Origin: Rhodococcus oxybenzonivorans
Lineage (GTDB): Bacteria > Actinomycetota > Actinomycetes > Mycobacteriales > Mycobacteriaceae
Length of the DNA stretch: 64,000 nucleotides
Direction: 5' to 3'
NCBI RefSeq assembly: GCF_003130705.1
Contig: NZ_CP021354.1
Coordinates: 6,262,001-6,326,000, forward strand
Shown: positions 3,031 through 21,065 of the stretch, one piece after another
Position numbering within the stretch: position 1 is the first letter of the stretch
Layout of the letters: each line of letters starts with the position of its first letter
Notes under the pieces: model-generated
The model's input: only the letters and a program-made list of their open reading frames with translations
What the model was told of the DNA's origin: nothing
The model's database searches: none
Position numbers and translations under genes: made by a program

Positions 3031-3129
3031 TGCCGAAGCGTTCGTCCTCGGCACACGGTTTCGGCGGCGGAGACGCGACATAGGGCAATAAACGGCGTCC
3101 CGGCGGCTTCGTGCGTTGTCGCTGCTCTT

Positions 3130-3582: not shown

Positions 3583-3742
3583 GTCGTTCGGCCTCCACTG
3601 ATGGTGTATCGCGTGGGCAGAAAAGAAAACTGGACGGTTTGGTACTCGCAAGTAGTGCAAGATCAATCGTAACCTGCACGGCGCAATGCAATTCCCGGCG
3701 AGGTCGTGTGCTCCACAGCGACCAATAGCGAAGGAAGCTTTC

Positions 3743-4042
3743 ATGGGCGTGCGCGACACAGTCAATGGTGCACTCGCAGTAACGCGCCTCGCATTCGACG
3801 CAGCCGCTGCCGTCGCATCCGTTGTCGTTGCCATTCCCATCGCGTTCGCCATCGGCGAGGCCACCACCATGGCGCGGGCCGTCCGCGGTGACATCACCCC
3901 CGCCCCGGCCGATCGGTCGGCCGACGGCAGTGCACGTTTGCACAGCGCATCGGACATCGGCCCCGCTCCACTCGTCCTCCGAGGCGGCGCCTACCGCGAG
4001 AACCGACCGGCACGCGCCCTCTCCGTTCGGCGAGACAGCTGA
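3743..4042 (+). CDS. Small hypothetical protein with one hydrophobic segment
   Basis: A 99-residue product whose first 45 residues contain a hydrophobic helix ([24 protein letters not shown]) that could span the membrane. The remainder is polar and disordered, with many Arg, Ala and Pro residues. The ATG at 3743 follows GAAGGAAG at good spacing, the main support for a real gene. It lies divergent to the Ddn-like gene and about 100 bases upstream of the SDR gene. No function is recognised, and the C-terminal half may be out of its ancestral frame. Confidence 0.45.
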
Positions 4043-4148
4043 CTCGTCGTCACTCCTTCGCGCGCTACGGCGTGCAACCCTTGAGTGCCCACAATCGACA
4101 GTGCTTGCCTTCTCTGTGAGGACGATCACTATCGAGAGGAGCTCAGGG

Positions 4149-4928: not shown

Positions 4929-4955
4929 ACCACCACCCCTGTGAGTACTTATTAA

Positions 4956-5821: not shown

Positions 5822-5874
5822 TAAGTTAGCTACGGTTGGGAAGCCGCCAAGATTGGCCGCTGCCATCGGCCCCA

Positions 5875-6387
5875 TCACAGGATGATGCTGAGCTTGCCGT
5901 GCTCGTACAACGTCTCGTGGTCGAGCACCACGACCCGTCTCCGGATTCGGAACGACTCGCCCTGAGGGACGAGTTCGAACCGATATTTTCCGACGTAGGC
6001 GTCAGAGCGCCCGTGCCCGAAGCGGTATGCGATGACATGTGCCGCCACCTCAAGGTAGCTGCCCTGATCAGCCAGGATTTCCACGTTGCTGATCATGCGA
6101 TTCGTTCGCGACCGAGGGTTCTCGCACCACACCTCACCATTGAGGATTTGCTCGATCCGCTGGCGAAGCCGGGCAGCATCGTCGTCGATGAGCCCGAGCG
6201 CGCCGGCCGACTCGTCGCGGACGTCGGTAGCCGGCACCATGTAGCGGATGTCGTCGGTCAGCATCTCGTCGTACCACTCGATCAGACGCCACTCGTCGAG
6301 CAGCCGAGCCTCACGGAAAATGAACTGGCTCACCCGGTGCCACAGCCCCACCTGGGCTGCATCGTCGACTGTCAGTACGCTGGTCAT
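5875..6387 (-). CDS. Aromatic-ring-hydroxylating dioxygenase, beta subunit
   Basis: A 170-residue protein of the small-subunit family (cone-shaped NTF2-like fold). Typical segments include FIFREARLLDEWRLIEWYDEMLTDDIRYMVP, ENPRSRTNRMISNVEI and a C-terminal FRIRRRVVVLDHE. The start codon overlaps the stop of the alpha subunit (TAATG), so the two are translationally coupled and should assemble as an alpha3beta3 oxygenase. The beta subunit is mainly structural. No ferredoxin or reductase gene is adjacent, so electron-transfer partners must be encoded elsewhere. The substrate cannot be assigned. Confidence 0.92.
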   Translation of the reverse strand: MTSVLTVDDAAQVGLWHRVSQFIFREARLLDEWRLIEWYDEMLTDDIRYMVPATDVRDESAGALGLIDDDAARLRQRIEQILNGEVWCENPRSRTNRMISNVEILADQGSYLEVAAHVIAYRFGHGRSDAYVGKYRFELVPQGESFRIRRRVVVLDHETLYEHGKLSIIL

Positions 6388-7703
6388 TATTTTTCTGCCC
6401 CTTGCAACTCGGCCTGGTGAGCGACCTCAAAGTGACCGTCGCCGCCGTGCATCATCCGGTCCCACTGCCGCCAGAATTCGCGGGCAGGAAGCTCGTCGGT
6501 CGTCTCGGGGATCTCCTTGTTCATACCGCGTGACAGATCCGAGTAGCGCACCGTGCGGTTGAGATAACCTCGCTGGCACGACTCGACGATCTCGATGTCG
6601 TCGGGAGTCGCGAAGCCAGCGGGACCGAGAAACGTGAGGTAGAAACTCTTGCGGAGTTCCCGGATCTCCGGATCTTCGTCCTTGGGGGCCAGCGCAACCG
6701 AGGTGATCGACATCCGGTCGGCGCCGATCGGGTCAATCTTGCGAATCGTGATCGCCTGCCCATCGATAATCATCAAGTTGGGGAAGATCAGCAACGCGCG
6801 ATTGGTGCTGGTGATCCGTTCGGCGTGTTCGGCGCCGAACCGGTCGACGAAACGTGCGGCGGTCGCCTCGATTTTCGGCCGGACCTCGGGACCGAACATC
6901 GGCGTCCAGTAGGCGAGCGGGCGGGCTGCGGCCGGCGGCAGCTCGTTGGCTCCATGACCCAGGCCGAGGGCGCGGCCGAAGCCACCTCGTCGTCGTGGTG
7001 CCTCCCCCCCGAGCGACTGCATGTAGCCGACGTAGCGCTTGTGCAGTGCACGGAAGTGGTAGATGTCGACGCTGTTCTCCATCATAAGCTTCCAGTTAGC
7101 TCGAGCCCCGTGCAGTTGCGCGCCTTGGATCACCTCCATTCCGACCTCGGACTGGTCATCGATCAGATCGAGGTACTCCGTGGCTCCCGCCAGGTACTCG
7201 GTCAAGGTGCGCGGCTGCTCCGGATCGAAGGTGAGGAAGACAAAACCGCGGTAACTGCCACTACGGTGCTGCGCCAGGCCGAAGTCCGCCTTCCGAAAGT
7301 CCGGCCCGTACCCATCCGGCATCGGGACCCCGACCAGGTCGCCCTGGTTGGAGAACGTCCAGTCGTGATAAGGGCACCGGAACGATTTGGCCTGCCCGGC
7401 CGGCTGCGAACAGACCAGAGCCCCGCGGTGAGTGCAGGCGTTGGCAAACACCCGGATCACCCCATCGGACCCGCGCGCCATGACCACCGGGCGCCCGCCG
7501 ACGTCGCGTGACACGTAGGAACCCGGCTCGGGTACCTCCGATTCGTGCCCGACGTACAACCAGCAGCGATCGAAGATCCTGGCCATCTCCCGGGCGGCCA
7601 GGTCGTCGTCGGTGTAGGCGCGGTGATCCACCCGGAACGAGAGGCGGTCGAAATCATCGAATACGATTGGGTCATCCACCGGCCGCTGCAGTTCGATCGT
7701 CAC
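6387..7703 (-). CDS. Aromatic-ring-hydroxylating dioxygenase, alpha subunit (Rieske oxygenase)
   Basis: A 438-residue catalytic subunit. The N-terminal Rieske [2Fe-2S] site is CTHRGALVC...FRCPYHDW (Cys-X-His and Cys-X2-His), near residues 85-110. The mononuclear iron site is in NSVDIYHFRALHKRYV, which supplies the bridging Asp and two His; the third acidic ligand lies in the C-terminal part. Such enzymes add O2 to aromatic rings to give cis-dihydrodiols or to hydroxylate aromatic acids. The start is a GTG at 7703 with GAGG a few bases upstream. Two near-identical direct repeats about 100 bp upstream are likely regulatory. Family certain; substrate unknown. Confidence 0.93.
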   Translation of the reverse strand: MTIELQRPVDDPIVFDDFDRLSFRVDHRAYTDDDLAAREMARIFDRCWLYVGHESEVPEPGSYVSRDVGGRPVVMARGSDGVIRVFANACTHRGALVCSQPAGQAKSFRCPYHDWTFSNQGDLVGVPMPDGYGPDFRKADFGLAQHRSGSYRGFVFLTFDPEQPRTLTEYLAGATEYLDLIDDQSEVGMEVIQGAQLHGARANWKLMMENSVDIYHFRALHKRYVGYMQSLGGEAPRRRGGFGRALGLGHGANELPPAAARPLAYWTPMFGPEVRPKIEATAARFVDRFGAEHAERITSTNRALLIFPNLMIIDGQAITIRKIDPIGADRMSITSVALAPKDEDPEIRELRKSFYLTFLGPAGFATPDDIEIVESCQRGYLNRTVRYSDLSRGMNKEIPETTDELPAREFWRQWDRMMHGGDGHFEVAHQAELQGAEK

Positions 7704-7856: not shown

Positions 7857-8396
7857 ATGGTGATAGTCGAGAGGCTATGATTAGGTGTTGTTGTTTCGCA
7901 ACCCTGATCCACGCGACCTCGACCGCGATACCTCAGCCGTTGTGGTCAATCGCTATCCAACGATTGCCCGATTGAACATTCCAACTCAGATGACGAGTCG
8001 GACCGCCACTGTCGGCGGTGGCTATCGACGGACAAGACACCGAGGAAGGCGAGGTGGCTATCGCGTGCAAATGCATATTCGGGGCGAACCATCGCCTCGC
8101 CGGCTAAGGCCCGCTGCAATGGATACGAACGGATCCAGGTGGCAGTGATGCTGGGTACCAACCAACTCGGTCGGGTGCGGAATCTCCGCACCCGACCGAC
8201 GAAATATGGCGATGAGAAGCGCGCCGTGATCTTGACCACGTGCGGATGGACATTCACTGTAACCACGCAGCGTGGACTCAATCCTGGGTCAAAGGTGACG
8301 CGCACAGTGGTACCGACCTAGGTCGCGGTGATTTAACCTTCAGGTTTCGAGTAACCATCACCACGTCTGCCACCTACCAGACAGGACCCGTAATCC
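7857..8396. other. Intergenic stretch, no convincing gene
   Basis: Between the repeats upstream of the dioxygenase and the MFS gene there are several short open frames on both strands (for example 7885-8148 plus and 7946-8305 minus). None shows a recognisable domain or a good ribosome site. I treat this as a divergent promoter region that may contain decayed sequence. Confidence 0.5.
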
Positions 8397-9875
8397 ATGT
8401 CAAGTCAACGTAGTCCGTGGTTTGCGCTGTACGCGCTGGTCGTCGGGTCCTTCATGATCCTGCTGGATATGACCATTGTCGCAGTGGCCAATCCGGCGAT
8501 CATGGACGACCTCCACGCCGATATTTCCAATGTAATCTGGGTCACCAGCGCTTACCTGCTCAGCTACGCTGTGCCACTGCTGATCACCGGACGGCTCGGA
8601 GACCGGTTCGGCCCCAAGAACATCTATCTGCTCGGTCTCGCCGTCTTCACCGCATCCTCGCTGTGGTGCGCGATGTCTAGCAGCATCGAGATTCTGATTG
8701 CAGCGCGCGCCGTCCAAGGTCTCGGTGCGGCGCTGATGACACCGCAGACTATGGCCATCATCACCCGCACCTTCCCGTCGAATAGGCGGGGCGCGGCCAT
8801 GGGTCTTTGGGGTGGCGTCTCAGGTCTCGCCACGCTCGTCGGCCCGATCCTGGGCGGCTTTCTGGTCGACTCCGAGGGCTGGGAGTGGATCTTCTACATC
8901 AATGTGCCGATCGGCGTCATCGCATTCGCCCTTGCCGTGTGGCTGGTGCCGGCCCTGGAAACCCATGAGCACAAGTTCGATCTGGTCGGCATGGCGCTGT
9001 CCGCGGCCGGGATGTTTCTACTGGTGTTCGGTATCCAGGAGGGCAATTCCCGCGACTGGGACGGCCTCATCTGGGCGTTGATCATTGCCGGGGTCGTGGT
9101 GATGGGCCTGTTTATGTATAACCAGTCCCGAAACTCCGAGGAACCGCTGGTGCCGCTGAGTCTGTTCAAGGATCGCAACTTCGCGATGTCCAACATCGCG
9201 CTCGGGGCCGTAAATGCCGCCGTGACAGCCCTGTTCGTGCCATTCTACTTCTACCTCCAACAGGTACAAGACATGTCGTCTACCGGATCGGCACTCGTGC
9301 TCGCTCCCATGGCCATCCTGGCGGGGATCCTCGCCCCGGTAGTCGGCAAGCTGTCGGACAGGATGGCGCCGCGTACCCTGCCCACCATCGGCTTCGCTGT
9401 GTTCGCTGCGACGATGTTCGGGTTCGCAACACTGATGCGGCCGGATACTCCGATCGTCCTTTTCCTGGTAATCGGCGGGATCGCCGGTGTCGCCAATGCC
9501 TGCATCTGGGCTCCGCTAGCCACCAGCGCCACTACCAACCTGCCGATGCAGCTGGCCGGTGCCGGTTCCGGTGTCTATTACGCCACTCGCCAGGTCGCCG
9601 CAGTGCTCGGATCCGCTACCGTTGGCGCATTGCTGTCGGCGCGAATCGCGGCCCAGCATCTGCCCACCGACAGCCCAATCGGTGAGGGCATGGCAGATTC
9701 GGCGAAGATGTCAGAACCGCTACTCGACAAGCTCAGCACAGCACTCGGCGAAGCCATGTATTTGCCCGCCGTCATCCTGCTGATCGGCCTCATCGCATCC
9801 GCCCTGCTGATTGGAGATCGAAGTGCGGCAGAGTCCAAAACGCTGCCGCCCGAGAAGGCAGATATCGCGGTGTAA
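8397..9875 (+). CDS. MFS transporter, DHA2 family (EmrB/QacA-type drug exporter)
   Basis: A 492-residue polytopic membrane protein with about 14 predicted helices. Diagnostic motifs include LDMTIVAVANPAI in helix 1 (motif D1), GRLGDRFGPK between helices 2 and 3 (motif A) and GGVSGLATLVGPILGG (motif C, typical of antiporter exporters). It probably exports a small molecule in exchange for protons. It lies about 400 bp upstream of, and in the same direction as, the unusual biosynthetic operon starting at 10273, so it could be the exporter of that product. Alternatively it may belong with the divergent dioxygenase. Family firm; link inferred. Confidence 0.9.
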   Translation: MSSQRSPWFALYALVVGSFMILLDMTIVAVANPAIMDDLHADISNVIWVTSAYLLSYAVPLLITGRLGDRFGPKNIYLLGLAVFTASSLWCAMSSSIEILIAARAVQGLGAALMTPQTMAIITRTFPSNRRGAAMGLWGGVSGLATLVGPILGGFLVDSEGWEWIFYINVPIGVIAFALAVWLVPALETHEHKFDLVGMALSAAGMFLLVFGIQEGNSRDWDGLIWALIIAGVVVMGLFMYNQSRNSEEPLVPLSLFKDRNFAMSNIALGAVNAAVTALFVPFYFYLQQVQDMSSTGSALVLAPMAILAGILAPVVGKLSDRMAPRTLPTIGFAVFAATMFGFATLMRPDTPIVLFLVIGGIAGVANACIWAPLATSATTNLPMQLAGAGSGVYYATRQVAAVLGSATVGALLSARIAAQHLPTDSPIGEGMADSAKMSEPLLDKLSTALGEAMYLPAVILLIGLIASALLIGDRSAAESKTLPPEKADIAV

Positions 9876-10272
9876 TCCAACTGAGGCTGGCCTTTGAAAA
9901 AGCGGTTCAACATGCCACGTTCCAGCTCGTCGAAATCGGTCGGCTTGGTAACGACTGTTGAAGCGCTGGGCTCGCTGAAGGATTTCACTGAACCTTCACT
10001 CGGAAAGGTCGGCACCGACCTAAGGGCACCAACAGGTCCGCGAAGTCCTGCTCCGACTGGCCAAATTACTCGATGAGGGCTTCGCGGAAACCACCTTTCA
10101 CATGTGGTGATTAGACTCGTCTCGAGAGCGTTAAACGGCCAGTTCAGCAACCGATTACGACGGATGCCGGGCCCCACTCCGCGGACAGCAATCCAGGAAT
10201 TGTGGGGCCCTGTCACGGACGAGACAGGACAACTGCTGCTCGCGCCGTCATATACAGAGAGTTAACGTACCG
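9876..10272. other. Intergenic leader region upstream of the 10.3-17.0 kb operon
   Basis: No gene is supported here. A short plus-strand frame near 9894-10076 has no recognisable product. One out-of-frame stretch just before 10110 (HQQVREVLLRLAKLLDEG) looks like the tail of a decayed protein. A perfect 9-bp inverted repeat at 10169-10210 is listed separately. The region probably contains the promoter of the operon. Confidence 0.5.
10169..10210. promoter_or_regulatory. Inverted repeat (hairpin or operator) in the operon leader
   Basis: GGGCCCCAC at 10169-10177 is exactly complementary to GTGGGGCCC at 10202-10210, with 24 bases between. It ends 62 bp before the ATG of the first operon gene. 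There is no following T run, so a simple terminator is unlikely. It could be an operator, an attenuator hairpin or an mRNA-stabilising structure. Confidence 0.45.
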
Positions 10273-11370
10273 ATGAGGATCCTCATAGCTCCCGTTACGA
10301 TCACTCCGACGAAGCCGCTGACTCCGACGCATATAAAGGGGTTTCTCTGGGTTGACGTCCTACGGAAGGCAACCAGCTTGTTACACGCGGAGGTGGACTG
10401 CATATGGAATCCCCGAACGCCGAACCTCAGCGGTCAAACGATTGGATTCTGGAACTTCCTCGACCAGAGCCACGCCGCCAAGAATTTCTCACAACTGGAC
10501 GAGATAGAAATCGGGTCCTTGTATGTGGATTACCATGCGTCGGGTATCAATACGCCGGTAGCAGCACAGGACCGCTATCGAAGTGCAATCGAAGAAGACG
10601 GCTGGATTCACCCAGCCACTGCTCGGATGGTCGAGTTATGGTGTCGACAGCTCGACACTCTCGGCATCAAGAACCCCGGTCTCCGGTGGGATCAGCGGCA
10701 TCTTTCATCTGTCAACGAGATCGTCGGAATTCTGCAATCGGAAAAGCTGTGTCTAGATCATCGATCCATCGGCGGTCCGGTCTATCTGGATGGCACACGA
10801 TGGGGTGTTCCATTGAGGATCGTGGTCGGCACCGACGGGCATCCCAATTATGTGATCACTGCGTTGCGCGATATTATTCCGATTGTCCGCAAATATGACC
10901 ATGTAGTCCTTGTGCACGACGATGAAATCACGCCAGATTTTGTACTCCTGCAAAAGGTGATCACACACTTTGGTGTGACTGTGTCCAGGTTGCCACTCGG
11001 CCGAGTTCCAGTGGGTGGTCAGGTTCAATCGAGTCGGCGCGGCGGCTGGACGGGGTCGACGCTCGGTGAACTGTCGGCGGAAGTGCTCGGATCCGTGCCG
11101 CTCGACGAGTACAGGCTCGGGATGCGACTTTACTTCACGGCCGTGTTGGGGCGTGGTGTCGGCGCGTCTCTGGATCGGGCAGTTCTTTATAGAACAATGT
11201 CGCGCGCCCGCAGACTCCTCAGGTCGTCGAATGCGGATGCGATCGACGCGGCGTGTTACGTGGCAGGTCATACGTCAGTCTACGGGTGGGTCGATCCTTA
11301 CCGACTGACATCGTCACTGTTGGGGCGGAATGCCCCGTCTACGCGGCTACTGGACGCAGTTTATCTGTAG
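10273..11370 (+). CDS. Class I aminoacyl-tRNA synthetase-like protein (ArgRS-like catalytic core)
   Basis: A 365-residue protein that resembles the catalytic core of class I synthetases, closest by eye to ArgRS. PTHIKGFLWVDVLR (residues 18-31) takes the place of the HIGH element. TDGHPNYVITALRDII (187-202) followed by KYDHVVLVHDD matches the ArgRS segment before the catalytic loop. SSRRGGWTGSTLGEL (253-267) resembles the ArgRS KMSKS-equivalent region. A short helical tail follows, but there is no full anticodon-binding domain and the length is about 60% of normal ArgRS. It probably activates an amino acid, or transfers one, for biosynthesis rather than translation. First gene of the operon; the ribosome site is weak. 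Confidence 0.6.
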   Translation: MRILIAPVTITPTKPLTPTHIKGFLWVDVLRKATSLLHAEVDCIWNPRTPNLSGQTIGFWNFLDQSHAAKNFSQLDEIEIGSLYVDYHASGINTPVAAQDRYRSAIEEDGWIHPATARMVELWCRQLDTLGIKNPGLRWDQRHLSSVNEIVGILQSEKLCLDHRSIGGPVYLDGTRWGVPLRIVVGTDGHPNYVITALRDIIPIVRKYDHVVLVHDDEITPDFVLLQKVITHFGVTVSRLPLGRVPVGGQVQSSRRGGWTGSTLGELSAEVLGSVPLDEYRLGMRLYFTAVLGRGVGASLDRAVLYRTMSRARRLLRSSNADAIDAACYVAGHTSVYGWVDPYRLTSSLLGRNAPSTRLLDAVYL

Positions 11371-11400
11371 ATTTGTTATGAGTTCATTTGGAGTGGAAGT

Positions 11401-13056
11401 ATGAAGACAGAGGTTTCGCAGCGCCGAGCGCACATCATTGCGCGCGCCGAGCATGAAAAGTCAGTGCTGCTATCGGTCATGGGAAAGGCGCCCCAAGTGC
11501 AGGCGAACCTTCTTCTCGAAATACTTCGCCGCAATGCGGATTCCAGCTTCGGCCACTCTCATCGTTTTCCGTCACTCCGAGGAATAGACGATTTTCGAGC
11601 CGCAGTTCCGGTGCGCGTTCACGAAGACTTCAGACCGTGGCTGGAGGCGGCGATAGCCGGAGAGCCTGGCGTGCTGGCCGATGAGGATCCGTTTGCGTAT
11701 TTTTCAAGCAGCGGAACCACAGGCGTCGAAAAGCGCATCCCGGTCACGAAGTCGTATTTGAAGGAAAGCTTCCTCCCTTTCTACTTCGCCGGACTCTCAA
11801 CGATCCTGAAGAGAGCCCCGGGCGCCTTGCGTGACGACAATTCCGTTCTCAACCTGTGGCAGGACCCGTTTTCCCCGATCGACCGCACCTCTGGCGGCCA
11901 TCCGCATATAGGACCAAGTCAGATCGACTACAAGAGCCTCGGCGAGGATATCGCTGTCGGCCTGGGCAATCGCGCCGCGTGGAGCAATCTGCCAGATATT
12001 TTCGCCGATGAAAATCCGCTACGCCGGACCTACCTTCGTTTGCGGATAGCGGCAGAGCATGATATCCGCTGCGTGTTCGCGATAAATCCAGCCATTGCCC
12101 ATGCCCTCCCCGAAGAACTGGCACAGTGGTGGCCAGAAATCGCGAAGGAAATTCACGACGGCACCCTGGGCGGCCAACCGTACAGTTCACCGAATCCGGA
12201 GCGAGCGAACCAGATCGAAGCCTTAGCTCGATGGTTCGGGACGGTCCGGCCTACTCACCTCTGGCCGAACCTGCGCAGCCTTGTCGTCTGGACGAGCTAC
12301 ATCGGCAGCCTGTACCTACCAGGTCTGGCACAGGACTTCGGTCCGGACGTAGAGGTCCTGTCTGCCCCGCTCGGATCCTGCGAGGGACCCTTGACGACGC
12401 CGATCGACCGTCACCCGACAGCTGCGCCTCTTGTGACACCCTCCGCCTTCTACGAATTCATCCCCGCGGATGACGCCATCTCCCCAGACAGCCCTACGCT
12501 GCTGGCCCACGAACTGGAAGTCGGCAATGACTACCACGTCGTCCTCACCAGGCTGGGAGGAATTCACCGGTGTGCTACCCGCGACATCATGCGGGTGGTC
12601 GACTACATCGGTACTACCCCGCGGCTCGAATACGGTGGGCGGCAGGGCGATCTCGTGGCAGGCACATCGAGGCTCCGCGAAGACCAGGTGGTCCGCGCTG
12701 TCCGCCGGACCGCTATCGAAGCCGGAATGCCGATCCACAATCTCTGCCTCAGGCTCAACGACGGCGGCGCCGCCCCGACTGCGGGTTACGAAATCGCCGT
12801 GGCGTTTCGGTCCTCCATTGACCAGCCCGACACTCACCGGTTCGAGCGTCTGCTCGACATCCATCTCAGCACCGAATGTAGCTCCTACGCTGCTGCGCGG
12901 CGCAACGACGAACTCGACAGCATCCGGCTCCGATCCGCACCTGCCTCCCTCTTCTTCGACAGATGGACCGACAGGGTCCGCGCGGGTCAACGTCCACCAC
13001 GAGTGAAGGACAGGGTCTTCGACGACAACCCGTCTATCTGGTCGGCGTTGGCATGA
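11401..13056 (+). CDS. GH3-family acyl-adenylating enzyme (acyl acid-amido synthetase-like)
   Basis: A 551-residue protein of the GH3 auxin-responsive promoter family. The adenylate-binding loop YFSSSGTTGVEKRIPVTKS lies near residues 100-118; LGSCEGPL, FYEFIP and YHVVLTRLGGIHRCATRD are the usual later motifs. Plant GH3 enzymes adenylate a carboxylic acid and couple it to an amino acid; bacterial ones occur in secondary metabolism. The ATG follows GGAGTGG, 30 bp after the ArgRS-like gene. The 3' end overlaps the next start by four bases (ATGA), so the genes are coupled. Combined with an amino-acid-activating homologue next door, amide formation is a reasonable inference; the substrates are unknown. 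Confidence 0.85.
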   Translation: MKTEVSQRRAHIIARAEHEKSVLLSVMGKAPQVQANLLLEILRRNADSSFGHSHRFPSLRGIDDFRAAVPVRVHEDFRPWLEAAIAGEPGVLADEDPFAYFSSSGTTGVEKRIPVTKSYLKESFLPFYFAGLSTILKRAPGALRDDNSVLNLWQDPFSPIDRTSGGHPHIGPSQIDYKSLGEDIAVGLGNRAAWSNLPDIFADENPLRRTYLRLRIAAEHDIRCVFAINPAIAHALPEELAQWWPEIAKEIHDGTLGGQPYSSPNPERANQIEALARWFGTVRPTHLWPNLRSLVVWTSYIGSLYLPGLAQDFGPDVEVLSAPLGSCEGPLTTPIDRHPTAAPLVTPSAFYEFIPADDAISPDSPTLLAHELEVGNDYHVVLTRLGGIHRCATRDIMRVVDYIGTTPRLEYGGRQGDLVAGTSRLREDQVVRAVRRTAIEAGMPIHNLCLRLNDGGAAPTAGYEIAVAFRSSIDQPDTHRFERLLDIHLSTECSSYAAARRNDELDSIRLRSAPASLFFDRWTDRVRAGQRPPRVKDRVFDDNPSIWSALA

Positions 13057-15419
13057 CCGCGTATACCAACGAGGATGAGGTCCCCTGCCGTGGTGACTAC
13101 ACCGAGGACGCTCGGCATCGAAGGCTCGCCTGGCTTCGTCAACAGTCCGGCGCCCCGTTGCTTTCGCTGCAGGAGTCCCGAATCGAGGCCAAGACGCTGA
13201 GAGGCAACCTCGAGAATTTTGTCGCCTCCATCGAGGTACCGGTTGGACTCGCAGGGCCGATGCTCTTCCGAGGAGGAGCTGTCCAAGGCATGGTCGCGGC
13301 CCCGCTCGCGACGACTGAAGGCGCGCTGGTCGCCTCAGTGACCCGCGGCGCCCGGGCGATCACCCGCGCCGGCGGGGTCTCCACCCACGTCATATGGCAG
13401 CGAATGGTGCGCGCTCCCGTGTTCGAGTTCAACGGAATCTCGCAGGCCGCGGAATTCGCGCTATGGGTATCCGCTCAACGGGTACCGCTGGCCGCCGAAG
13501 TGCTTGCTGTGTCACAGCACTCGAATCTGGTCGACGTGGATCCGGTGCAGTTGGGGCGAGTCGTACACGTGCGGCTTGTTTACGAGACCGGCGATGCGGC
13601 TGGGCAGAACATGACCACGATCGCGACCTGGCGGGCATGTCAGTGGCTGCAGGATCGCCTGTCCGAACCGGGTCTGCCTGCGCCGGTGTGGTTCGCAATC
13701 GAAGGCAATCTCAGCGGAGACAAGAAGCTATCGGTCTTGAACAGGATCGGCGGGCGTGGATCGCGGGTGGTTGCGGAATGCCTAATCGACCATGACACTC
13801 TCCGACACGTTCTGAAGACGACGGCGCGGTCAATCGACAAGACGTGGCGTGCGGCCGAGCACGCCGCACAATTCGGCGGGATGTCCCTCGCGGATGTCGA
13901 CGTCGCAAACGTCGTCGCCGCGATGTTCCTGACGACCGGTCAAGATGTCGCCTGCGTCCACGAATCCAGCGCCGCGATGTTTACCACCGAAGAACGCGAA
14001 GAGGGCCTGCTGACCACCCTGGTTATGCCGAATCTGGTCGTCGGCACGGTAGGCGGAGGCACCCGCCTACCGCAGCAGAATGACTATCTGGCCGCGATGG
14101 GCTGTGTCGGTGAGGGAAGCTCGCGTCGGCTGGCGGAGATCATCTGCGGGTTCGCGCTCGCCCTCGACGTGTCGACCGCGGCCGCAATCGCGGCCGGTCA
14201 TTTTGCTGACGCTCACGAACGTCTGGGTCGGCCCAATCGTGTCGACTGGCTTCGCCCGGATTCCATCAACGCTGAACTGCTGACACCTCTCCTCGCCGAG
14301 CGGTTCGAACAACCCACGTTGGTTATCGATGAGCTCGTCGTTCTCGGCGACGAGGTCAGATCGAGCCTGCTCACCGAGGCTGTCGGTGCCGCCGAGAATC
14401 GGAAACTCACCGGCCTCGTGCCGCTTCGTATCGCCTACTCGGTCCCCGGCGCAGACATGACCGTGGTGGACCTGATGTTGAAGGTCAAGCCGCTCGACAG
14501 CGAGGTGATCATCGAAGTAGGGAAGATCGCTTCACTCCTCGGTGGTGATGTGGCCGAGCAGTATTCGCAGTGGCGCCAGAGCACTGGTTTCAAGGACACG
14601 CACACTCGCGAACTCGCTGTGTATCGAAACGCGAACAAAGCAATGCTGCAGGTGATGCCCGAGCTCTACGGCCTAGCGGAGGACCCATCCCGCGAAATCT
14701 ATGCGGTTCTGTTGGAACGCCTGGGAACCGACGTGATCTTGGCCGACAGCAGGCGTCCGTCCGAAGACTGGAAACCACACCACCTGCACTCGGCTATCGA
14801 GGGGATCGCGTCCGTCCACGCAGCGTGGCTGGGACGCGAAGAAGAGTTGATTTCAGCCGGCTGGCTGGGAGAGATTCAAACGGCACACCGGGCAGGACTC
14901 ATGCGGCCCCTATGGAAGGCCCTGATCGAGCACAACAGCGAGGTGTACCCGGCGTGGATCGCCGCGGATGATTCGAGGCGGCTCACCGAGATTGTCGACA
15001 CGATTCCGCACTGGTGGCCACAGATCGAACAGGCGCCACGGACTCTCGTGCACGGGGACTTCAATCCGCGAAACATCGCCCTGCGCGCCGCAGATCTGTC
15101 CCTTGTCGCCTACGACTGGGAGTTGGCGACGCTGCATTTGCCCCAGCGCGACCTTGTGGAACTCATGGCTTTTGTCCTGACACCAGAGGCTACGGCCGAC
15201 GAAGTAGTCGAGCTGGTCGAGCGACATCGGCATGCAGTCGGATACGACGTCGACACTGGGGTCGACTCATGGTTCGAGGGTTACCGACTGGCGCTCTGGG
15301 ACTTCACGACCACGAGACTGCAGCTGTACATGATGGCAAACACACATCAGGAACTGCCGTTCCTGGACGAAGTTGTTCGGACCTCCATGCATCTTCTCGC
15401 CCTGGAGGCCCAGTCGTGA
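13053..15419 (+). CDS. HMG-CoA reductase-like domain fused to an APH/choline-kinase-type phosphotransferase
   Basis: A 788-residue two-domain protein. Residues about 15-400 align with class I HMG-CoA reductase: ENFVASIEVPVGLAGP, ATTEGALVAS with catalytic Glu89, the DAAGQNM cofactor segment, GDKKLS with Lys225, TGQD with Asp298, GTVGGGTRLPQQ and AGHFADAHE with His388. All four catalytic residues are present. Residues about 450-788 form an aminoglycoside-phosphotransferase-like kinase with LVHGDFNPRN (catalytic Asp669) and VAYDWE (metal-binding Asp688). The ATG at 13053 overlaps the GH3 stop (ATGA); a longer frame from 12963 is possible but unlikely. I know of no characterised enzyme with this fusion. 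The obvious reading is a reductase product phosphorylated by the same polypeptide. Confidence 0.88.
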   Translation: MTAYTNEDEVPCRGDYTEDARHRRLAWLRQQSGAPLLSLQESRIEAKTLRGNLENFVASIEVPVGLAGPMLFRGGAVQGMVAAPLATTEGALVASVTRGARAITRAGGVSTHVIWQRMVRAPVFEFNGISQAAEFALWVSAQRVPLAAEVLAVSQHSNLVDVDPVQLGRVVHVRLVYETGDAAGQNMTTIATWRACQWLQDRLSEPGLPAPVWFAIEGNLSGDKKLSVLNRIGGRGSRVVAECLIDHDTLRHVLKTTARSIDKTWRAAEHAAQFGGMSLADVDVANVVAAMFLTTGQDVACVHESSAAMFTTEEREEGLLTTLVMPNLVVGTVGGGTRLPQQNDYLAAMGCVGEGSSRRLAEIICGFALALDVSTAAAIAAGHFADAHERLGRPNRVDWLRPDSINAELLTPLLAERFEQPTLVIDELVVLGDEVRSSLLTEAVGAAENRKLTGLVPLRIAYSVPGADMTVVDLMLKVKPLDSEVIIEVGKIASLLGGDVAEQYSQWRQSTGFKDTHTRELAVYRNANKAMLQVMPELYGLAEDPSREIYAVLLERLGTDVILADSRRPSEDWKPHHLHSAIEGIASVHAAWLGREEELISAGWLGEIQTAHRAGLMRPLWKALIEHNSEVYPAWIAADDSRRLTEIVDTIPHWWPQIEQAPRTLVHGDFNPRNIALRAADLSLVAYDWELATLHLPQRDLVELMAFVLTPEATADEVVELVERHRHAVGYDVDTGVDSWFEGYRLALWDFTTTRLQLYMMANTHQELPFLDEVVRTSMHLLALEAQS

Positions 15420-16261
15420 TGCCGCGTCTCGAACCGCCGGTCGTAGCACTCGTGGGTATTGATGGCTCAGGCAAGTCCACCGTCCTGAGTCTCATCGGCG
15501 ACCGAGTCCCCACGTGCGTGACCTTGTCATCGATGCGCAACCACGACGTTGCGGATGCGCCGTTGCGTGACTTATCCGAAGCTCTGGATAGGTTACGTAC
15601 GAAGGCTCATTCGCTGAACAGCTCTAGACTTGTCCTCGCGACCATGTTTCTTCAGATGTGCATGTTCGGCCCTACCGAACGGTTTTTCTCTGGAGCGACC
15701 TCGCCCGCCTTCGTACTGGCGGATCGCCACCCAGTAGTCGATGCCGCAGTCCATCTACCCACATTTAAGAAGATCATCGACAGCGATGAGGCGCACAATT
15801 CGACTCCTGATCTTCGCACCGTTCTCGGACCTAAAGACGCGAAGCTGGTAGTCCGCTGGTTGGAAGCGCAAGGAAGACGGCTCGGTGAGGCATGGAGTAT
15901 CGACGACCTCTGCGAGTATTTGCTTTCTCTGACCAGCATTCCGGACAGTGTGCTCCTGGAAAACCTGGCGGTCATGCTGCAGACACCCCTGCCTCAACTC
16001 ATCATATGGCTCGACATCGATATTGACGTTGCCACGGACCGACTGGCCGGCCGATCCGGTCTACGCGAGATTCACGAGAGTCGCAACCACCTGACCAGGA
16101 TCCGCGCCAGGTATCAATATGTACTGAATACCCTGCCGCCAGAGGTGCAGGTTTTCCCGATCGCCGTCGACGAGCGCTCCCCAGACCAAGTTGCCGACTC
16201 GATTATGACCGCCGTAACAGAGAGGCAGAGCCATGTACTCGCAGGAGTTTCTGCAGAGTGA
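15419..16261 (+). CDS. Thymidylate-kinase-like P-loop kinase
   Basis: A 280-residue protein starting with a Walker A loop, VVALVGIDGSGKST (Gly13-Thr21). A later FVLADRHPVVDAAVHL resembles the DR(Y/H) motif of the TMPK branch, and LIIWLDIDIDVATDRLAGR is the usual TMPK-type strand plus Arg lid. It is longer than a normal TMPK and its central part (residues 60-160) is divergent, so dTMP is unlikely to be the substrate. The start overlaps the stop of the fusion gene (TGATG). In this operon it may add a second phosphate to the product of the APH-type kinase; animal phosphomevalonate kinases also belong to the P-loop NMP-kinase group. That link is inference. Confidence 0.75.
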   Translation: MPRLEPPVVALVGIDGSGKSTVLSLIGDRVPTCVTLSSMRNHDVADAPLRDLSEALDRLRTKAHSLNSSRLVLATMFLQMCMFGPTERFFSGATSPAFVLADRHPVVDAAVHLPTFKKIIDSDEAHNSTPDLRTVLGPKDAKLVVRWLEAQGRRLGEAWSIDDLCEYLLSLTSIPDSVLLENLAVMLQTPLPQLIIWLDIDIDVATDRLAGRSGLREIHESRNHLTRIRARYQYVLNTLPPEVQVFPIAVDERSPDQVADSIMTAVTERQSHVLAGVSAE

Positions 16262-16979
16262 AGCCGAGCGCCGAGCTCAATGGACCCAGAAGTGCGGGGA
16301 AATTGCTCCCAGCAACGACTTCTGCGCTGTAGCCGTCGTATCAAGGTTTAATCCTACCGAATTTGTGGAATCGAGTTACGGCTTTACCGCCGGCATACCG
16401 CCGGAGATACGTACGAAGTGGTGCGCCAACTATACGCGAACCTTTTACCTTGCCGGGGATCCGGGCAATATTTCCGCCCGCTTCCCGCCAGCCTATATTT
16501 CCACCGACGGGTCCGTCGCGTGGTATGGCCCGGACATCATCGCGGCGACAACGAACCTGCGGAAGCTATTGCGACCACTAGTAGGCACATCCGAGATAGT
16601 AAACACCGTCGAAGTAGTTCGATCGGACAACAATGAAACGTTGTCCCCTTCCGCCGCAGTACTGGCCGTCGAGATGAATGAGACAACCGCCGAGCGATAC
16701 TTAATCCATTCGAATCATATCGTCTCAGAGGCGCTGACAATGGGGCTTTTGGATGGCACGGATTCTATCAAACTCAGGCTCGTCGACAGGATCGATTCCG
16801 AGGAGGGTCCGTACGATTACCTTAGAATCGCAGCGGATTACGATCGGCCCGAACTTCTTCGTTGCTACGCTGCTCTGAAGCTGAGTCCGCAGCATCGGGT
16901 GTTCGCAAATTCCATCACGGTCGATATCGGATCTGCGGAGTTGAGGTCATCTGCGGTCGCCGCACGGGAGGGGCGATAG
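16233..16979 (+). CDS. Orphan protein, last gene of the biosynthetic operon
   Basis: A 248-residue soluble protein without signal or membrane segment and without a family I recognise. It begins MYSQEFLQSEAERRAQW and contains NYTRTFYLAGDPGNISARFPPAYISTDG in the middle. The ATG at 16233 overlaps the kinase gene by 29 bases, so co-translation is likely. Base composition is somewhat less GC-rich than in neighbouring housekeeping genes, like the first gene of the operon, which hints at acquisition. It may be the tailoring or condensing enzyme that completes the pathway; nothing in the sequence proves this. Confidence 0.7.
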   Translation: MYSQEFLQSEAERRAQWTQKCGEIAPSNDFCAVAVVSRFNPTEFVESSYGFTAGIPPEIRTKWCANYTRTFYLAGDPGNISARFPPAYISTDGSVAWYGPDIIAATTNLRKLLRPLVGTSEIVNTVEVVRSDNNETLSPSAAVLAVEMNETTAERYLIHSNHIVSEALTMGLLDGTDSIKLRLVDRIDSEEGPYDYLRIAADYDRPELLRCYAALKLSPQHRVFANSITVDIGSAELRSSAVAAREGR

Positions 16980-17040
16980 GGGTGGAGGCGCCAAGCGGCG
17001 ACATCCTATAGCGAGGCCAACCGACGGCGCTATGGTCGCG

Positions 17041-17136
17041 TTAAGTGCAGCCGTACGTAGTCGCTCCGCTGAAATTTACGCCGGGCTCGATGGTACCGGT
17101 GTCGTCGTTTCCCCCTGTGTTCCACATGTCATGCAT
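17041..17136 (-). CDS. Candidate 31-residue precursor-like peptide
   Basis: A short frame opening with MHDMWNTGGNDD and ending SGATTYGCT. The ATG at 17136 has AAGGGAG eight bases upstream, and a 27-bp inverted repeat lies 31 bp before the start. The peptide is acidic in its first half and Ser/Thr/Cys/Gly-rich at its C-terminus, a layout seen in some ribosomally made, modified peptides. It is convergent with, and 61 bp from, the last operon gene. It also overlaps the decayed exonuclease frame, so it could be fortuitous. No modification enzyme of a known RiPP class is adjacent. Confidence 0.4.
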   Translation of the reverse strand: MHDMWNTGGNDDTGTIEPGVNFSGATTYGCT

Positions 17137-17402
17137 CGGGTTGTCTCCCTTCTCAATAACGTCAATTGCGTAGTACAGCGGGACTGCACTACGCGATTTA
17201 CTGGGTTCTTTCCGTGTCGGGGCTGCGCGGTCACGGCGATCTCGAGGATCGCGCCGTCGAAGTCGGTGGATTCGACATCGCAGACCACCGCCCGGCCGGG
17301 CCGCAGCATCGCCTGCGCCCACTGGCGGGGACTGAGCGCATGCGGCACCTGCCCCACTCGCGGGCTCGGCGCTGGTGACTCGGGTGCGGTCATGGTGGCC
17401 AT
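17076..17402 (-). pseudogene. Truncated 3'-5' exonuclease-domain gene (DnaQ-like)
   Basis: An ATG at 17402, preceded by GGAGGGTG, opens a frame reading ESPAPSPRVGQVPHALSPRQWAQAMLRPGRAVVCDVESTDFDGAILEIAV. The CDVESTDFDG segment is the first acidic (DxE) motif of DnaQ-like exonucleases found on actinobacterial chromosomes and plasmids. After ILEIAV near 17230 the similarity ends and the remaining residues look random, so the catalytic domain is lost. It is probably an old breakpoint. The small peptide frame at 17041 lies in the non-homologous tail. Confidence 0.6.
17168..17194. promoter_or_regulatory. 27-bp inverted repeat upstream of the small peptide gene
   Basis: GCGTAGTACAG at 17168-17178 and CTGCACTACGC at 17184-17194 match at 10 of 11 positions around a 5-base centre. 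It sits 31 bp before the peptide start on the minus strand, where a repressor operator would be expected. No cognate regulator is identified nearby. Confidence 0.45.
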
Positions 17403-17479
17403 CGTGACCGCACCCTCCGACACACTCAGCCGCACACCGGCGCCAACAGCATCACCAGCTGGCATCGGCCTTACCGGCC

Positions 17480-17590
17480 TCACTGGGCGAGCTTCGCGTC
17501 GAGCCATCCGTCGACGAAGGCGGTCATGATCTTCCGGCCGCTCCCGTCGACGACGGCCAACCCGCATGGACTGAGCAATTCCCACAGCAT
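17480..17590 (-). CDS. 36-residue hypothetical protein
   Basis: A short frame beginning MLWELLSPCGLAVVDGSG and ending DGWLDAKLAQ. Its ATG at 17590 has a perfect GAGGAGG ribosome site five bases upstream, better than most genes in the window. It lies 77 bp upstream of the truncated exonuclease gene in the same direction and was probably the first gene of that former operon. No known family; the strong start is the only support. Confidence 0.4.
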   Translation of the reverse strand: MLWELLSPCGLAVVDGSGRKIMTAFVDGWLDAKLAQ

Positions 17591-17793
17591 GAGACCTCCT
17601 CGTGTTGGTGTTCTCAGACGCGAACGGCTGCGGGAAGAACGCAAGGTCGAGCAGGAACTCGACGCCACCCAGTACTTCCAAAGCCGAAGCAACTGGCCGA
17701 CGGGCGCCGCAACCGGGCCGACCACCCAACGGTCCGTGCCCACACCCGCCGAGCGGCAACAGCAGCCGCCACCGGACTGGTCGTTCGCGCCGC

Positions 17794-18390
17794 TCAGCGG
17801 CGCAGCGCGGCCGCGGAAATCGGAAGGCCCGCCGCCGCAAGGCGGTCACACACATCAGCCGGGGTCCCGGGTGGATGACGCCAGGCCGCGGCCGTCGCGC
17901 TGACCGCTTGATGGTCCCGCACCCCGTCGAGGTGGAACAGATCCATCACGAACTCGTCCGGATACTTGGCCTCGATGCCGAACTACGCCAGCTCCGCATC
18001 GGGGAAGTCCCGCAGGTTCGCAGAGACGATCACCTACGACCCGGCGCGGATCGCCGCGGCCAGCACATGGCGGTCGTCCTCATCCGGCAGCGTGAGCGCG
18101 GGGATGAGTGTCTCGTAGCCGGTGACCAGGGGAGTCCCGAACCGCCGGCGTTCATCAGCTCCCGCAGCTTCGTCAACGTCGCTGTCGGGATGTCCGGGCG
18201 ATCCTCGGCCAAGTTCTCGAACGTCTCGCCGGAGGATGCGATCCGTCCACCGGGCATGCACCAGGCCGGTCTGCGCTAGCCGAATCAGCACGTCTCGTAA
18301 CACATTCTCACCGGCCTGCTGCAGAAGCTGGCCACCGCAAAAGATCAGGACGAGATCAAACGACGCTGACCGCCTACGAGCGGAAAATCT
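17794..18390 (-). pseudogene. PIN-domain ribonuclease toxin (VapC50-like), degraded
   Basis: Reading across frames on the minus strand gives DVLIRLAQTGLVHARWTDRIL, then ETFENLAEDRPDIPTATLTKLRELMNA, then LVTGYETLIPALTLPDEDDRHVLAAAIRAGS, VIVSANLRDFPDAELA and FGIEAKYPDEFVMDLFHLDGV. Together these match the PIN_3 toxins of the mycobacterial VapC50 type. Two frameshifts (near 18270 and 18130) and two in-frame TAG codons, each one base from CAG, inactivate it. The N-terminal start is not clear, and no antitoxin gene is visible upstream. The toxin function is therefore lost. Confidence 0.72.
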
Positions 18391-18587
18391 GCTCCCGAAC
18401 CGCTGTCCCCATCGCTCGGTGCACGTCGTCATCGGAACAAAACACGTTCCGGCGCAGGATGCGTTTCGCTTATGTGTGCACACATCGCGATGTGAGGTAT
18501 CGGGGCATCTCGGACGGACATGCCGCCTTCCTGTTGCCATCACGATCAACGCGTAAACAATTCGATCAACCCCTTGATTAAATGAAA

Positions 18588-18642
18588 ATGGTCTGGCATA
18601 GTTGTGCTTCGGGTCACATTCGACCATCTGTTCAGTTTGGTC
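18588..18642. promoter_or_regulatory. Candidate TetR-type half-sites upstream of the MoaF-like operon
   Basis: ATGGTC at 18588-18593, GACCAT at 18622-18627 and GTTTGGTC at 18635-18642 lie within 110 bp of the MoaF-like start. The last two form an inverted pair. The same elements, GTTTGGTC and GACCATNTG, occur together at 24164-24186 before the TetR gene. They may be operators of one regulon. Confidence 0.4.
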
Positions 18643-18698
18643 CGTTTCCGCACGCCGGTACCCTGCGCCACGTGTCATCAACCATCGAAGGGCATCAA

Positions 18699-19541
18699 AT
18701 GTTGAGTGCAACAACACCATTCAGCTGGAACAAGGAAAACTGGGCCCCTCTCACCGAAATGGCCGACGGCTTCGACGAGTACCTACCTGACCTCAGCAGG
18801 GCGCTCGACGGCCGGGAGATCGTGCTCGACGCTCGATACGTCGACAGCGGTAACTCGTTCACCCTCTCCCAGAAGTTCTCCAATTCTGCAGTCGAGTGGG
18901 CTGTGATCGAGAACGGCACCGAAACCGCGCACGGCAGCGACAGCTACGAGCTGTTCGAGATGCAGCCCGGACTGTTTTACCTTCACTACCTGCGTGCCGG
19001 AGAGGATCACCCCGTCGCGCTCAGCGCCGCAATCGATACCGTCAGCGGGCAGGTCACCGGAGCGGTCGGGGAGCTCGGACTCGACCCGAACCCGGCAGCC
19101 GCTCGGCAGAGCTGGTTCCAGGGCCAAATTGCGGGATCCGGTGCCGTCCCGGAAGCGGCGCATATCGCCACAGACGAACTGATCGGACGCCGCGTTCGTT
19201 ACGCATACAGCAGCGAGGACGTCTACGACCACGTCTATCTGAACGAGAACATCTTTACGTGGCTGTGCGTCGGCGGTACCGAGCTCGGTGTCGGTGACAC
19301 CGAACATTGCACCTACTACAAGCTGCGTGAGAACACGTACCTGTTCTCTTGGCTCGAGAAGAACCTCGGTGTCGAAGGCATGGTGCTCATCGACCTGGCT
19401 GCGCACCGCACCGTCGGCATCCAATTCGCCCTCGATCAATACAGCGGAGAACTGGTCAACCTCACGATGGGCTCGTACGCGCAGGAATTCGAGCGCACGC
19501 CGGCGATCGACGCTGCACGGCCCGGCCCCTCGACCAAGTAG
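18699..19541 (+). CDS. MoaF-domain protein
   Basis: A 280-residue protein with two lipocalin-like MoaF halves. The C-terminal half contains RVRYAYSSEDVYDHVYLNENIFTWLCV, GDTEHCTYYKLRENTYLFSWLEKNLGVEG and TVGIQFALDQYSGELVNLTMGSY, the conserved MoaF pattern. MoaF was named from the Klebsiella moa operon, but it is not required for molybdopterin synthesis and its role is unsettled. The ATG at 18699 has GAAGGG upstream; longer frames lack support. It heads a same-strand group with an APC permease and an SDR, which suggests catabolism or sensing of an amine or amino-alcohol. Function unproven. Confidence 0.8.
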   Translation: MLSATTPFSWNKENWAPLTEMADGFDEYLPDLSRALDGREIVLDARYVDSGNSFTLSQKFSNSAVEWAVIENGTETAHGSDSYELFEMQPGLFYLHYLRAGEDHPVALSAAIDTVSGQVTGAVGELGLDPNPAAARQSWFQGQIAGSGAVPEAAHIATDELIGRRVRYAYSSEDVYDHVYLNENIFTWLCVGGTELGVGDTEHCTYYKLRENTYLFSWLEKNLGVEGMVLIDLAAHRTVGIQFALDQYSGELVNLTMGSYAQEFERTPAIDAARPGPSTK

Positions 19542-19613: not shown

Positions 19614-21065
19614 ATGTCCACCACGCCACCCATATCTTCGAGCGCAGCACCCCAGCCCGGTTTCACCGAACGATCCGGATTGCGTCCGGGCACGTTGGGC
19701 GTCGGGGCCATCATCTTCTTCGTGGTCGCGGCCGTGGCGCCCATGGCCGCGATCATCGGGGCCTCGCCGGTCGTGTTCTCCGCCAACGGAGCAACGGCCC
19801 CACTGGTTTATCTGCTTGCCGCTGCCCTGTTCGTAATCTTCTCCTCCGGGTACGTCGCCATGAGTCGGCACATACGTAACGCCGGTGGATTCGTGGCCTA
19901 CATCGCACACGGATTGGGCCCGCGCGTGGCCACAACAGGTGCAGGATTGGCCATCCTGTTCTACGGCAGCCTGCAATCGGCACTGTGGTCGCAGTTCTCG
20001 GTATTCGCCAACGCACTGATTGCAGACAAGCTCGGAGTCGACATTCCACCGCTGGTCATCGTCTTCGTGGTGCTGGCGGTCGTAACTACTCTGACCGTTC
20101 TCGGTGTCGACCTCAGCCTCAAAGTTCTCGGCGTTCTGGTCGCCCTCGAAATCGCGGTGCTCGTCGTCCTCGACGCTACGATCATCTTCGGCGGAGGCGG
20201 ATCGTCGGGCAACTCACTGGCTGCCTTCGATCCTTCAGCGCTGGTCGGCCCAGGTCTCGGAGTAGCTTTCCTGTTCGCGTTCGCGTGCTTCACCGGTTTC
20301 GAGGCGACAGTGGTGTTCTCCGAGGAGGCCAAGAACCCCCGTCGCACTATTCCTCGGGCCGTCTACGGATCCATCGCCTTCATCGGCCTGTTCTACGCCC
20401 TGACCGTCTGGGCGCTCGGCAATTCGGTCGGATCGGATTCGGTACAGGCTGCGGCCACCGACGACCCTGCCGGATTCGTCTTCGCCATTGCCGAGAAGGA
20501 AGTCGGCCCCTGGCTCGCGACCTCCCTCGAAGTTCTCGTCGTCACCAGTTTCGTTGCGATGCTCATCGGATTTCAGAACATGTTCGCTCGCTACCTGTAC
20601 GCGCTGAGCCGAGCGGGAGTCCTGCCCGCTCGATTGGGTACCGTCACCGCCAAGTCCGGAACACCCGCTACCGCTGCGCTCTGCGTAGGTGTGTTCATTG
20701 CCGTCGTCGTCGCCGGCTTCGGAATGGCCGGTGCAGATCCGATCACGGTCACCTTCAGCTGGCTCCTCTCGCTGGGCACCGTGGCTCTGATCGTGATCCT
20801 GATCCTCACGTCCATAGCGATCATCGCGTTCTTCCTCCGGAACAAGCTCGAAACGAACCTGTGGACGACGAAGATCGCACCAGTACTGTCGGTCGCCGGC
20901 TTCGGCTCCGTGGCATACATCGCGATCACCAACTACGACGTCCTGCTCGGTGGCCAAGGCGGGGTAGCTCAATGGCTGCTGTTGTTGATCCCCGCGGTTT
21001 CGATAGCTGGGTTCGCTTGGGCCACGCTGCGCCCCGCAGTCAACTACGAAGCGGAATTGGTCTGA
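19614..21065 (+). CDS. APC-family amino acid/amine permease
   Basis: A 483-residue membrane protein with about 12 helices. The N-terminal TLGVGAIIFFVVAAVAPMAAIIGA replaces the usual glycine-rich unwound helix 1. ACFTGFEATVVFSEEAKNPRRTIPRA is the conserved helix 6/loop signature, and NMFARYLYALSRAGVLP belongs to helix 8. It probably imports an amino acid or amine by proton symport. It lies 72 bp after the MoaF-like gene and 37 bp before an SDR gene, so they are likely one transcript. The substrate is unknown. Confidence 0.9.
   Translation: MSTTPPISSSAAPQPGFTERSGLRPGTLGVGAIIFFVVAAVAPMAAIIGASPVVFSANGATAPLVYLLAAALFVIFSSGYVAMSRHIRNAGGFVAYIAHGLGPRVATTGAGLAILFYGSLQSALWSQFSVFANALIADKLGVDIPPLVIVFVVLAVVTTLTVLGVDLSLKVLGVLVALEIAVLVVLDATIIFGGGGSSGNSLAAFDPSALVGPGLGVAFLFAFACFTGFEATVVFSEEAKNPRRTIPRAVYGSIAFIGLFYALTVWALGNSVGSDSVQAAATDDPAGFVFAIAEKEVGPWLATSLEVLVVTSFVAMLIGFQNMFARYLYALSRAGVLPARLGTVTAKSGTPATAALCVGVFIAVVVAGFGMAGADPITVTFSWLLSLGTVALIVILILTSIAIIAFFLRNKLETNLWTTKIAPVLSVAGFGSVAYIAITNYDVLLGGQGGVAQWLLLLIPAVSIAGFAWATLRPAVNYEAELV

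Follow-up and report, generated by a model that had tools for sequence, protein, structure and literature searches.

A five-gene operon in Rhodococcus oxybenzonivorans

We analysed a group of five genes, here named A to E, in a 64,000-nucleotide stretch of DNA from Rhodococcus oxybenzonivorans (RefSeq assembly GCF_003130705.1, contig NZ_CP021354.1, positions 6,262,001 to 6,326,000 of the forward strand), which is called the window below. Operon structure, protein families and co-occurrence were computed, together with the fold of A and the catalytic residues of the GH3, 3-hydroxy-3-methylglutaryl-CoA (HMG-CoA) reductase (HMGR) and APH-type kinase domains of B and C. All five genes are open reading frames (ORFs) on the + strand (Table 1), at the coordinates and spacings recorded in an earlier note on this DNA. 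A and B are separated by 30 nt, B and C share an ATGA overlap, C and D meet at TGATG, and D and E overlap by 29 nt, thus confirming the note's view that they form one unit. A longer alternative ORF for C, from 12963, begins within B; the start at 13053 was chosen because it gives the ATGA overlap and fits the operon. The previous labels (arginyl-tRNA synthetase (ArgRS)-like, GH3, HMGR-kinase, P-loop kinase) were upheld by family assignment, and in the case of A by fold. A Pfam/NCBIfam search of the five proteins also bore out the statement that they contain no polyketide synthase (PKS), nonribosomal peptide synthetase (NRPS), terpene synthase or ribosomally synthesised and post-translationally modified peptide (RiPP) domain.

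The N-terminal, central and C-terminal GH3 domains of B (PF03321, PF23571 and PF23572) all scored above cut-off, and its matches in the PDB include JAR1 and GH3.12 (plant JAR1, E 2.5e-17). In an alignment of 55 relatives, 14 of the 69 cluster members having been excluded because of their length, the GH3 nucleotide motifs, defined as in PMC12493201, were kept throughout: SSG in motif 1, E in motif 2 and D in motif 3.

The closest solved relative of the reductase half of C was HMGR 6hr7 (E 2.9e-72). The catalytic Glu, Lys, Asp and His of HMGR were kept in 23 of 23 aligned relatives, as were the His, Asp and Asn of the APH motif HxDxxxxN and a later Asp (one of 24 cluster members was dropped for length). 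The APH domain scored 32.0 bits against a cut-off of 23.2, while C as tested with the NADPH HMGR equivalog TIGR00533 reached 271.7 bits, below the cut-off of 441.8. Since the catalytic positions are kept, the GH3, HMGR and APH enzymes of B and C are probably active. A search with the kinase half of C, which took proteins of 0.55–1.75 times the length of C and in which free-standing kinases could not appear, gave 281 matches; the 120 listed all carry an HMGR domain, and they include proteins of Moraxellaceae and Thermoleophilaceae. Among the matches listed, many HMGR-APH fusions are about 900 aa long and occur also outside Actinomycetota, and one HMGR-fusion member of 1331 aa has PF11899 in place of a named kinase domain.

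D carries the P-loop GIDGSGKST and scored 30.4 bits with Pfam Thymidylate_kin (cut-off 27); with the NCBIfam dTMP kinase equivalog it reached 32.7 bits, below the cut-off of 83.25. E, which had been regarded as an orphan, proved to be a DUF6182 protein (PF19680, E 5.5e-52).

Table 1. Positions in the window of genes A to E, their domains and motif sites, and the upstream transporter gene
Feature	Position	Strand	Description
Gene A	10273..11370	+	ArgRS-derived class-I synthetase-like protein, 365 aa; no Pfam/NCBIfam model
HIGH motif position (class I) in A	10321..10332	+	T-P-T-H, residues 17-20
KMSKS motif position in A	11026..11037	+	QSSR, residues 252-255; aligned to MSKRAG of ArgRS
Gene B	11401..13056	+	GH3 acyl-adenylating amide synthetase, 551 aa; Pfam GH3, GH3_M, GH3_C
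Gene C	13053..15419	+	Class-I HMG-CoA reductase fused to APH-type kinase, 788 aa
HMG-CoA reductase domain of C	13113..14231	+	Pfam PF00368, E 1.5e-101
APH-type kinase domain of C (extent of Pfam match)	14604..15218	+	PF01636, E 1.4e-7
Gene D	15419..16261	+	P-loop kinase, thymidylate-kinase/deoxynucleoside-kinase type, 280 aa; Pfam Thymidylate_kin
Gene E	16233..16979	+	DUF6182 protein, 248 aa; Pfam PF19680
N-terminal domain of E	16314..16580	+	Peptidyl-tRNA-hydrolase-2-like fold, residues 28-116
MFS transporter gene, upstream of A	8397..9875	+	DHA2/EmrB type; TIGR00711 over cut-off

A is an ArgRS descendant with altered signature motifs

No Pfam or NCBIfam model matched A, the closest named homologue of which is from Rhodococcus (79%). 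Structural alignment showed that nearly the whole of A has the class-I catalytic fold of ArgRS, with collinear motif positions. When alignments were compared with hhalign, A matched ArgRS with a probability of 83%, the ArgRS set consisting of 14 of 21 sources (13 distinct genes) that had been selected by the pattern of the HIGH region, with seven dropped, which favours canonical ArgRS; five unrelated profiles used as a comparison gave E values of 0.14–0.42. Judged by fold and by alignment-to-alignment comparison, A descends from ArgRS. The genome of the window has a separate, normal ArgRS.

Structural alignment places the beginning of A at ArgRS residue 113, so that the N-terminal, tRNA-contacting domain is missing, and the acidic positions that bind arginine in ArgRS are not kept. 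Across 81 aligned homologues the HIGH site reads mostly [T/L]-P-[T/S]-H and in none HIGH, the first His and the Gly being gone throughout; at the KMSKS site the majority residues are RSSR, compared with QSSR in the window's A. The description of A as a homologue of amino-acid-activating synthetases therefore stands as regards the ArgRS-like fold, but activation itself is doubtful because both motifs are replaced in all 81 proteins. The loss of these ATP signatures suggests that A does not form aminoacyl adenylates in the normal way. It may either use charged tRNA, as cyclodipeptide synthases and SbzA do, or bind ATP differently.

E shares part of its fold with peptidyl-tRNA hydrolase 2

Residues 28-116 of E have the fold of peptidyl-tRNA hydrolase 2 (Pth2). 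A comparison of E with 21 actinobacterial Pth2 proteins by hhalign gave a probability of at most 1%, and the Pth2 motifs GKxxAQxxH and DAGxT were absent from the consensus of 57 E-family members; sequence thus gives no support for a true Pth2. The family was built mainly from A loci, as a homologue search with E, which needs shared words, gave four proteins. For the C-terminal domain, no confident fold match was present among the matches listed, no search having been made with that domain alone. The DUF6182 profile matched mitoribosomal mL65/MRPS30 (E 0.0014) through the single segment W..FT+TVFL.G.P. Individually, two of the 57 members gave an mL65/PDCD9 match (best E 0.16), and the relation is weak. 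A literature search for DUF6182 returned no paper naming it.

A and E form the core of a recurrent cassette

A plus E is the core of the system, and a GH3 amide synthetase and a thymidylate-kinase-like protein accompany it in nearly all cases. The class was sampled with 394 genomes, among them that of the window. A was found in six and DUF6182 in the same six, and E adjoins A in each of the five other genomes. GH3 scored over cut-off in six genomes, four of which have A. HMGR was present in 33, and among these only the window's genome has A; it is also the sole A carrier among the 28 genomes of its genus. This pattern makes A and E a strict pair in the sample, GH3 the usual third member and the HMGR-kinase optional.

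A second comparison covered the top-ranking 80 of the 104 A loci confirmed in genomes of named species. These loci were found via conserved A peptides, so that A is present by construction; ORFs were called with a simple GC-position script and layouts were derived from tblastn at E 1e-5. E was found in 77 of these loci, GH3 in 73, the HMGR-kinase in 27, and either D (28) or the P-loop protein k3 (44; best PDB match E 0.0051) in 72. Seven loci lack GH3, four of them (L046, L052, L070, L086) being cut by a contig end.

The window's order, A-B-C-D-E (layout I), occurs in 12 of the 80 loci, from Actinomadura (8), Nonomuraea (3) and Thermocatellispora (1). Layout II, A-E-B-C-D, accounts for 15, one without B, and layout III, k3-GH3-methyltransferase-(FAD enzyme)-A-E-(LysR-like, hydrolase, methyltransferase), for 51 including partial ones; two loci have remaining layouts. 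On the A tree, layout III forms one side of a branch (100/99) and layout II another (96/90). The window's A falls outside the layout III group, on a long branch (0.84) that makes its exact placement uncertain. Together with its gene order this means that the window is not of the rub type, k3-GH3-LCM-(FAD)-A-E.

It is clear that the genes do not recur only separately, which the earlier note had named as grounds for giving up its proposal: the shared order extends to other actinomycete genera and most loci share the core. The mixture of enzymes that it had singled out holds as a recurrent unit; its centre is A plus E and not the whole set, the HMGR-kinase being found in about a third of loci. 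The transporter that it expected to recur with the genes did so rarely (see below).

Other biosynthetic genes were seen beside some cassettes: NRPS genes in L016, L018, L043 and L079 by Pfam and in L075 by cluster and motif, type I PKS motifs in L028 and L082, and a type II PKS cluster beside another. A search of a plasmid collection gave one match, without annotation. In L016, a layout I cassette next to an NRPS lies between an SbnA-type and an ornithine-cyclodeaminase-family gene (4639-5715 and 16802-17830), the probable role of which is to supply 2,3-diaminopropionate. In L082, a fusion of a 3-phosphoshikimate carboxyvinyltransferase domain and a CoA-ligase-like domain (2990-5953) adjoins a layout II cassette and the type I PKS motifs. 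Actinomadura fibrosa has three cassettes (L010, L058, L084), among which layout I occurs twice and layout III once; this suggests that they make different products. An AfsA-type gene (cluster c25, checked by Pfam in L024) lies upstream of layout III in the Streptomyces loci L024, L026, L032, L040, L042 and L045; four of these six share P450 cluster c11 and four share YcaO/SagD-type cluster c35.

Surroundings of the operon in the window

The G+C content is 58.6% in positions 8001-12000, around A, versus 61.5-69.0% in the window's remaining 4-kb blocks. Acquisition from elsewhere would agree with this difference but is not proved by it. Export by the MFS protein encoded at 8397, as suggested before, found no backing as a conserved feature: the gene ends 397 nt upstream of A and a homologue was near the cassette in only 8 of the 80 relatives. 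Ring-hydroxylating dioxygenase genes lie upstream, within 5875-7703, the nearest models being of the benzoate/anthranilate type and below cut-off; MoaF (18582-19541) and amino-acid permease (19614-21065) genes lie downstream. As parts of the cassette we rejected the Rieske dioxygenase (6387-7703) and MoaF, each near none of the 80 relatives, and the permease, near three. The same applies to a tRNA gene, as ARAGORN gave four in 86 loci, without pattern.

Proposed function and alternatives

We give about even chances to the reading that A to E represent one form of an actinobacterial cassette for a specialised metabolite, which has a patchy distribution and has probably spread horizontally. In such a cassette, acyl activation and kinase reactions would supply an aminoacyl transfer carried out by A and E. 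For its substrates, order of steps and product, and for A and E acting together, we propose the following. The HMGR-kinase would be a version-specific supplier of the acyl part. A hydroxy acid of the mevalonate type may arise when its HMGR half reduces HMG-CoA or a closely similar acyl-CoA, and the APH half would phosphorylate the new hydroxyl. Formation of HMG-CoA in leucine catabolism is an established pathway, and leucine breakdown could be the source here, since a search of the window's genome gave no match for HMG-CoA synthase. The HMGR product probably serves as a building block rather than feeding isoprenoid synthesis, because mevalonate-diphosphate decarboxylase likewise gave no match in this genome and its single HMGR is the one in C. 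GH3 would adenylate the carboxylate and join it to an amino acid or amine, giving an amide; A and E together might place or transfer an aminoacyl group, and D may add or move a phosphate, acting on a hydroxyl or a phosphate. The product would be a small phosphorylated acyl-amino-acid conjugate, and an amide- or phosphate-containing compound is plausible in view of the conserved GH3 and kinase motifs.

Several observations weigh against this reading. Plain sequence searches do not identify A as ArgRS (one gave E 1.2, single-sequence hhalign was negative, and none of the 81 A-family members matched the tRNA-synt_1d profile at E≤1), so its ancestry had to be traced by structure and alignment-to-alignment comparison. 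The likeness of k3 to thymidylate kinase is weak (16 of 26 members at E≤0.1, best 1.1e-4), and k3 resembles D around the P-loop only. Two genomes of the class sample, G018 (complete) and G260 (87% complete), have A and E without a GH3 match. Among the 80 loci, L027, L077 and L082 lack GH3 with no contig end nearby; three lack E, two of which end just past A at a contig end and one, L015, is uncut. Neither GH3 nor E is thus strictly indispensable. To account for layout I, with the window counted in, the tree of A requires two changes, since the window's A stands apart from the 12 others. Finally, the 29 HMGR loci of the class sample besides the window's include one HMGR-APH fusion (L136) in a genome without A (G392); C is thus not private to the cassette, and a tie to A is not obligatory.

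In G018, a single-contig genome, A and E (L155, G018:C1:141001-161000) lie near genes for a PPDK-type phosphotransferase, an AfsA-type hotdog protein (no PDB match), an acyl carrier protein, a ketosynthase, a HAD-family hydrolase and two aldo-keto reductases. Phosphotransferase and acyl-supply genes therefore accompany A and E even without GH3, and L155 is possibly a fourth layout.

A tentative and rather unlikely elaboration of the cassette reading is that A and DUF6182 make up a two-part aminoacyl-transfer machine. A, with ATP activation lost, would take the aminoacyl group from charged tRNA or a tRNA-like carrier, and the Pth2-fold protein E would assist in its release or in its passage to a scaffold, an acyl-phosphate or amide, that GH3 and the kinases had made. 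If this is true, the machine would have arisen independently of cyclodipeptide synthases and SbzA and have spread through Actinomycetota.

It is possible, if somewhat unlikely, that A is instead an ordinary ATP-dependent amino-acid ligase that works without tRNA in the manner of MshC, passing an aminoacyl adenylate to a small molecule, with E as an accessory. Such a ligase is hard to reconcile with the lost His and Gly of HIGH and the RSSR-like KMSK site in 81 homologues, as MshC itself keeps both HIGH and KMSKS.

We regard it as quite improbable that the unit serves immunity or regulation by modifying tRNA, the ribosome or another translation component, with no metabolite being secreted. A and part of E do share folds with translation proteins, and the mL65 match of E points weakly in the same direction, but GH3, HMGR and the methyltransferases, FAD oxidoreductase and hydrolase of the relatives are typical small-molecule enzymes, and the distribution is patchy (6 of 394 genomes).

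An alternative or regulated mevalonate/isoprenoid branch is very improbable: the HMGR catalytic residues are intact and the operon has two kinases, yet HMG-CoA synthase and mevalonate-diphosphate decarboxylase were not found in the genome, on which ground we rejected an isoprenoid pathway operon, and 51 of 80 relatives have layout III, with no HMGR-kinase. That unrelated genes stand together here by chance, or only locally, is a practically negligible possibility, for although GH3 and HMGR are also found elsewhere without A, the order is identical in 12 loci, most of the 80 share the core, and layouts II and III agree with the branching of the A tree.

If the cassette reading is right, public species genomes hold a family of at least 104 loci with an ArgRS-descended key enzyme and DUF6182 as its partner.

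Comparison with known systems

E and Pth2 share the fold of E residues 28-116, but no sequence homology was found, the Pth2 motifs do not appear in the family consensus, and E has an extra C-terminal domain. B resembles OlsH, a bacterial GH3 protein that makes N-acyl ornithine, in family and in the three nucleotide motifs (PMC12493201). B reached 53 bits with the OlsH model, against a cut-off of 620, and the two lie in different operons.

A shares its fold and collinear motif positions with ArgRS, from which it differs in being shorter, without the N-terminal domain, and in having replaced HIGH and KMSKS and lost the arginine-binding acidic positions. That synthetase-like enzymes act in specialised metabolism is already known. 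PMC2922099, a paper of 2010, gives precedents among class-I synthetase-like proteins; 'arginyl' and 'ArgRS' do not occur in its main text. MshC, cyclodipeptide synthases and MetRS-like metabolite proteins reuse the class-I fold outside translation, as A does, but derive from synthetases other than ArgRS. Our literature search found no paper pairing 'arginyl-tRNA synthetase-like' with 'biosynthetic gene cluster'. SbzA, from the Streptomyces metabolite cluster for SB-203208, is an IleRS-like transferase that uses Ile-tRNA; like A it is class-I synthetase-like, and within its metabolite cluster it moves the aminoacyl group onto a small molecule. SbzA keeps HIGH and KMSKS slightly changed and was modelled on IleRS at 37.6% identity, whereas A is ArgRS-derived and has lost both (SbzA as described in PMC6331615). 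If the cassette reading is right, an ArgRS-derived case joins the synthetase-like enzymes of metabolite assembly.

A published cassette of the same kind is a segment of nine ORFs, rubM2-rubP4, in the rubiginone cluster of Streptomyces sp. CB02414. The authors suggest that it is an insertion, note that S. hundungensis has these ORFs in an identical order but not within a recognised cluster, and, in the excerpted text, give the segment no function (PMC8487521). By order and size, RubP1 corresponds to DUF6182, RubP2 to A, RubP3 to GH3 and RubP4 to k3. The segment has layout III, with methyltransferases, an FAD oxidoreductase, a LysR-like protein and a hydrolase instead of the window's HMGR-kinase. 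One of our loci, L037, comes from Streptomyces sp. CB02414 and carries a layout III cassette in the rub order. On the cassette reading, these nine puzzling genes within a published antibiotic cluster become a testable biosynthetic module.

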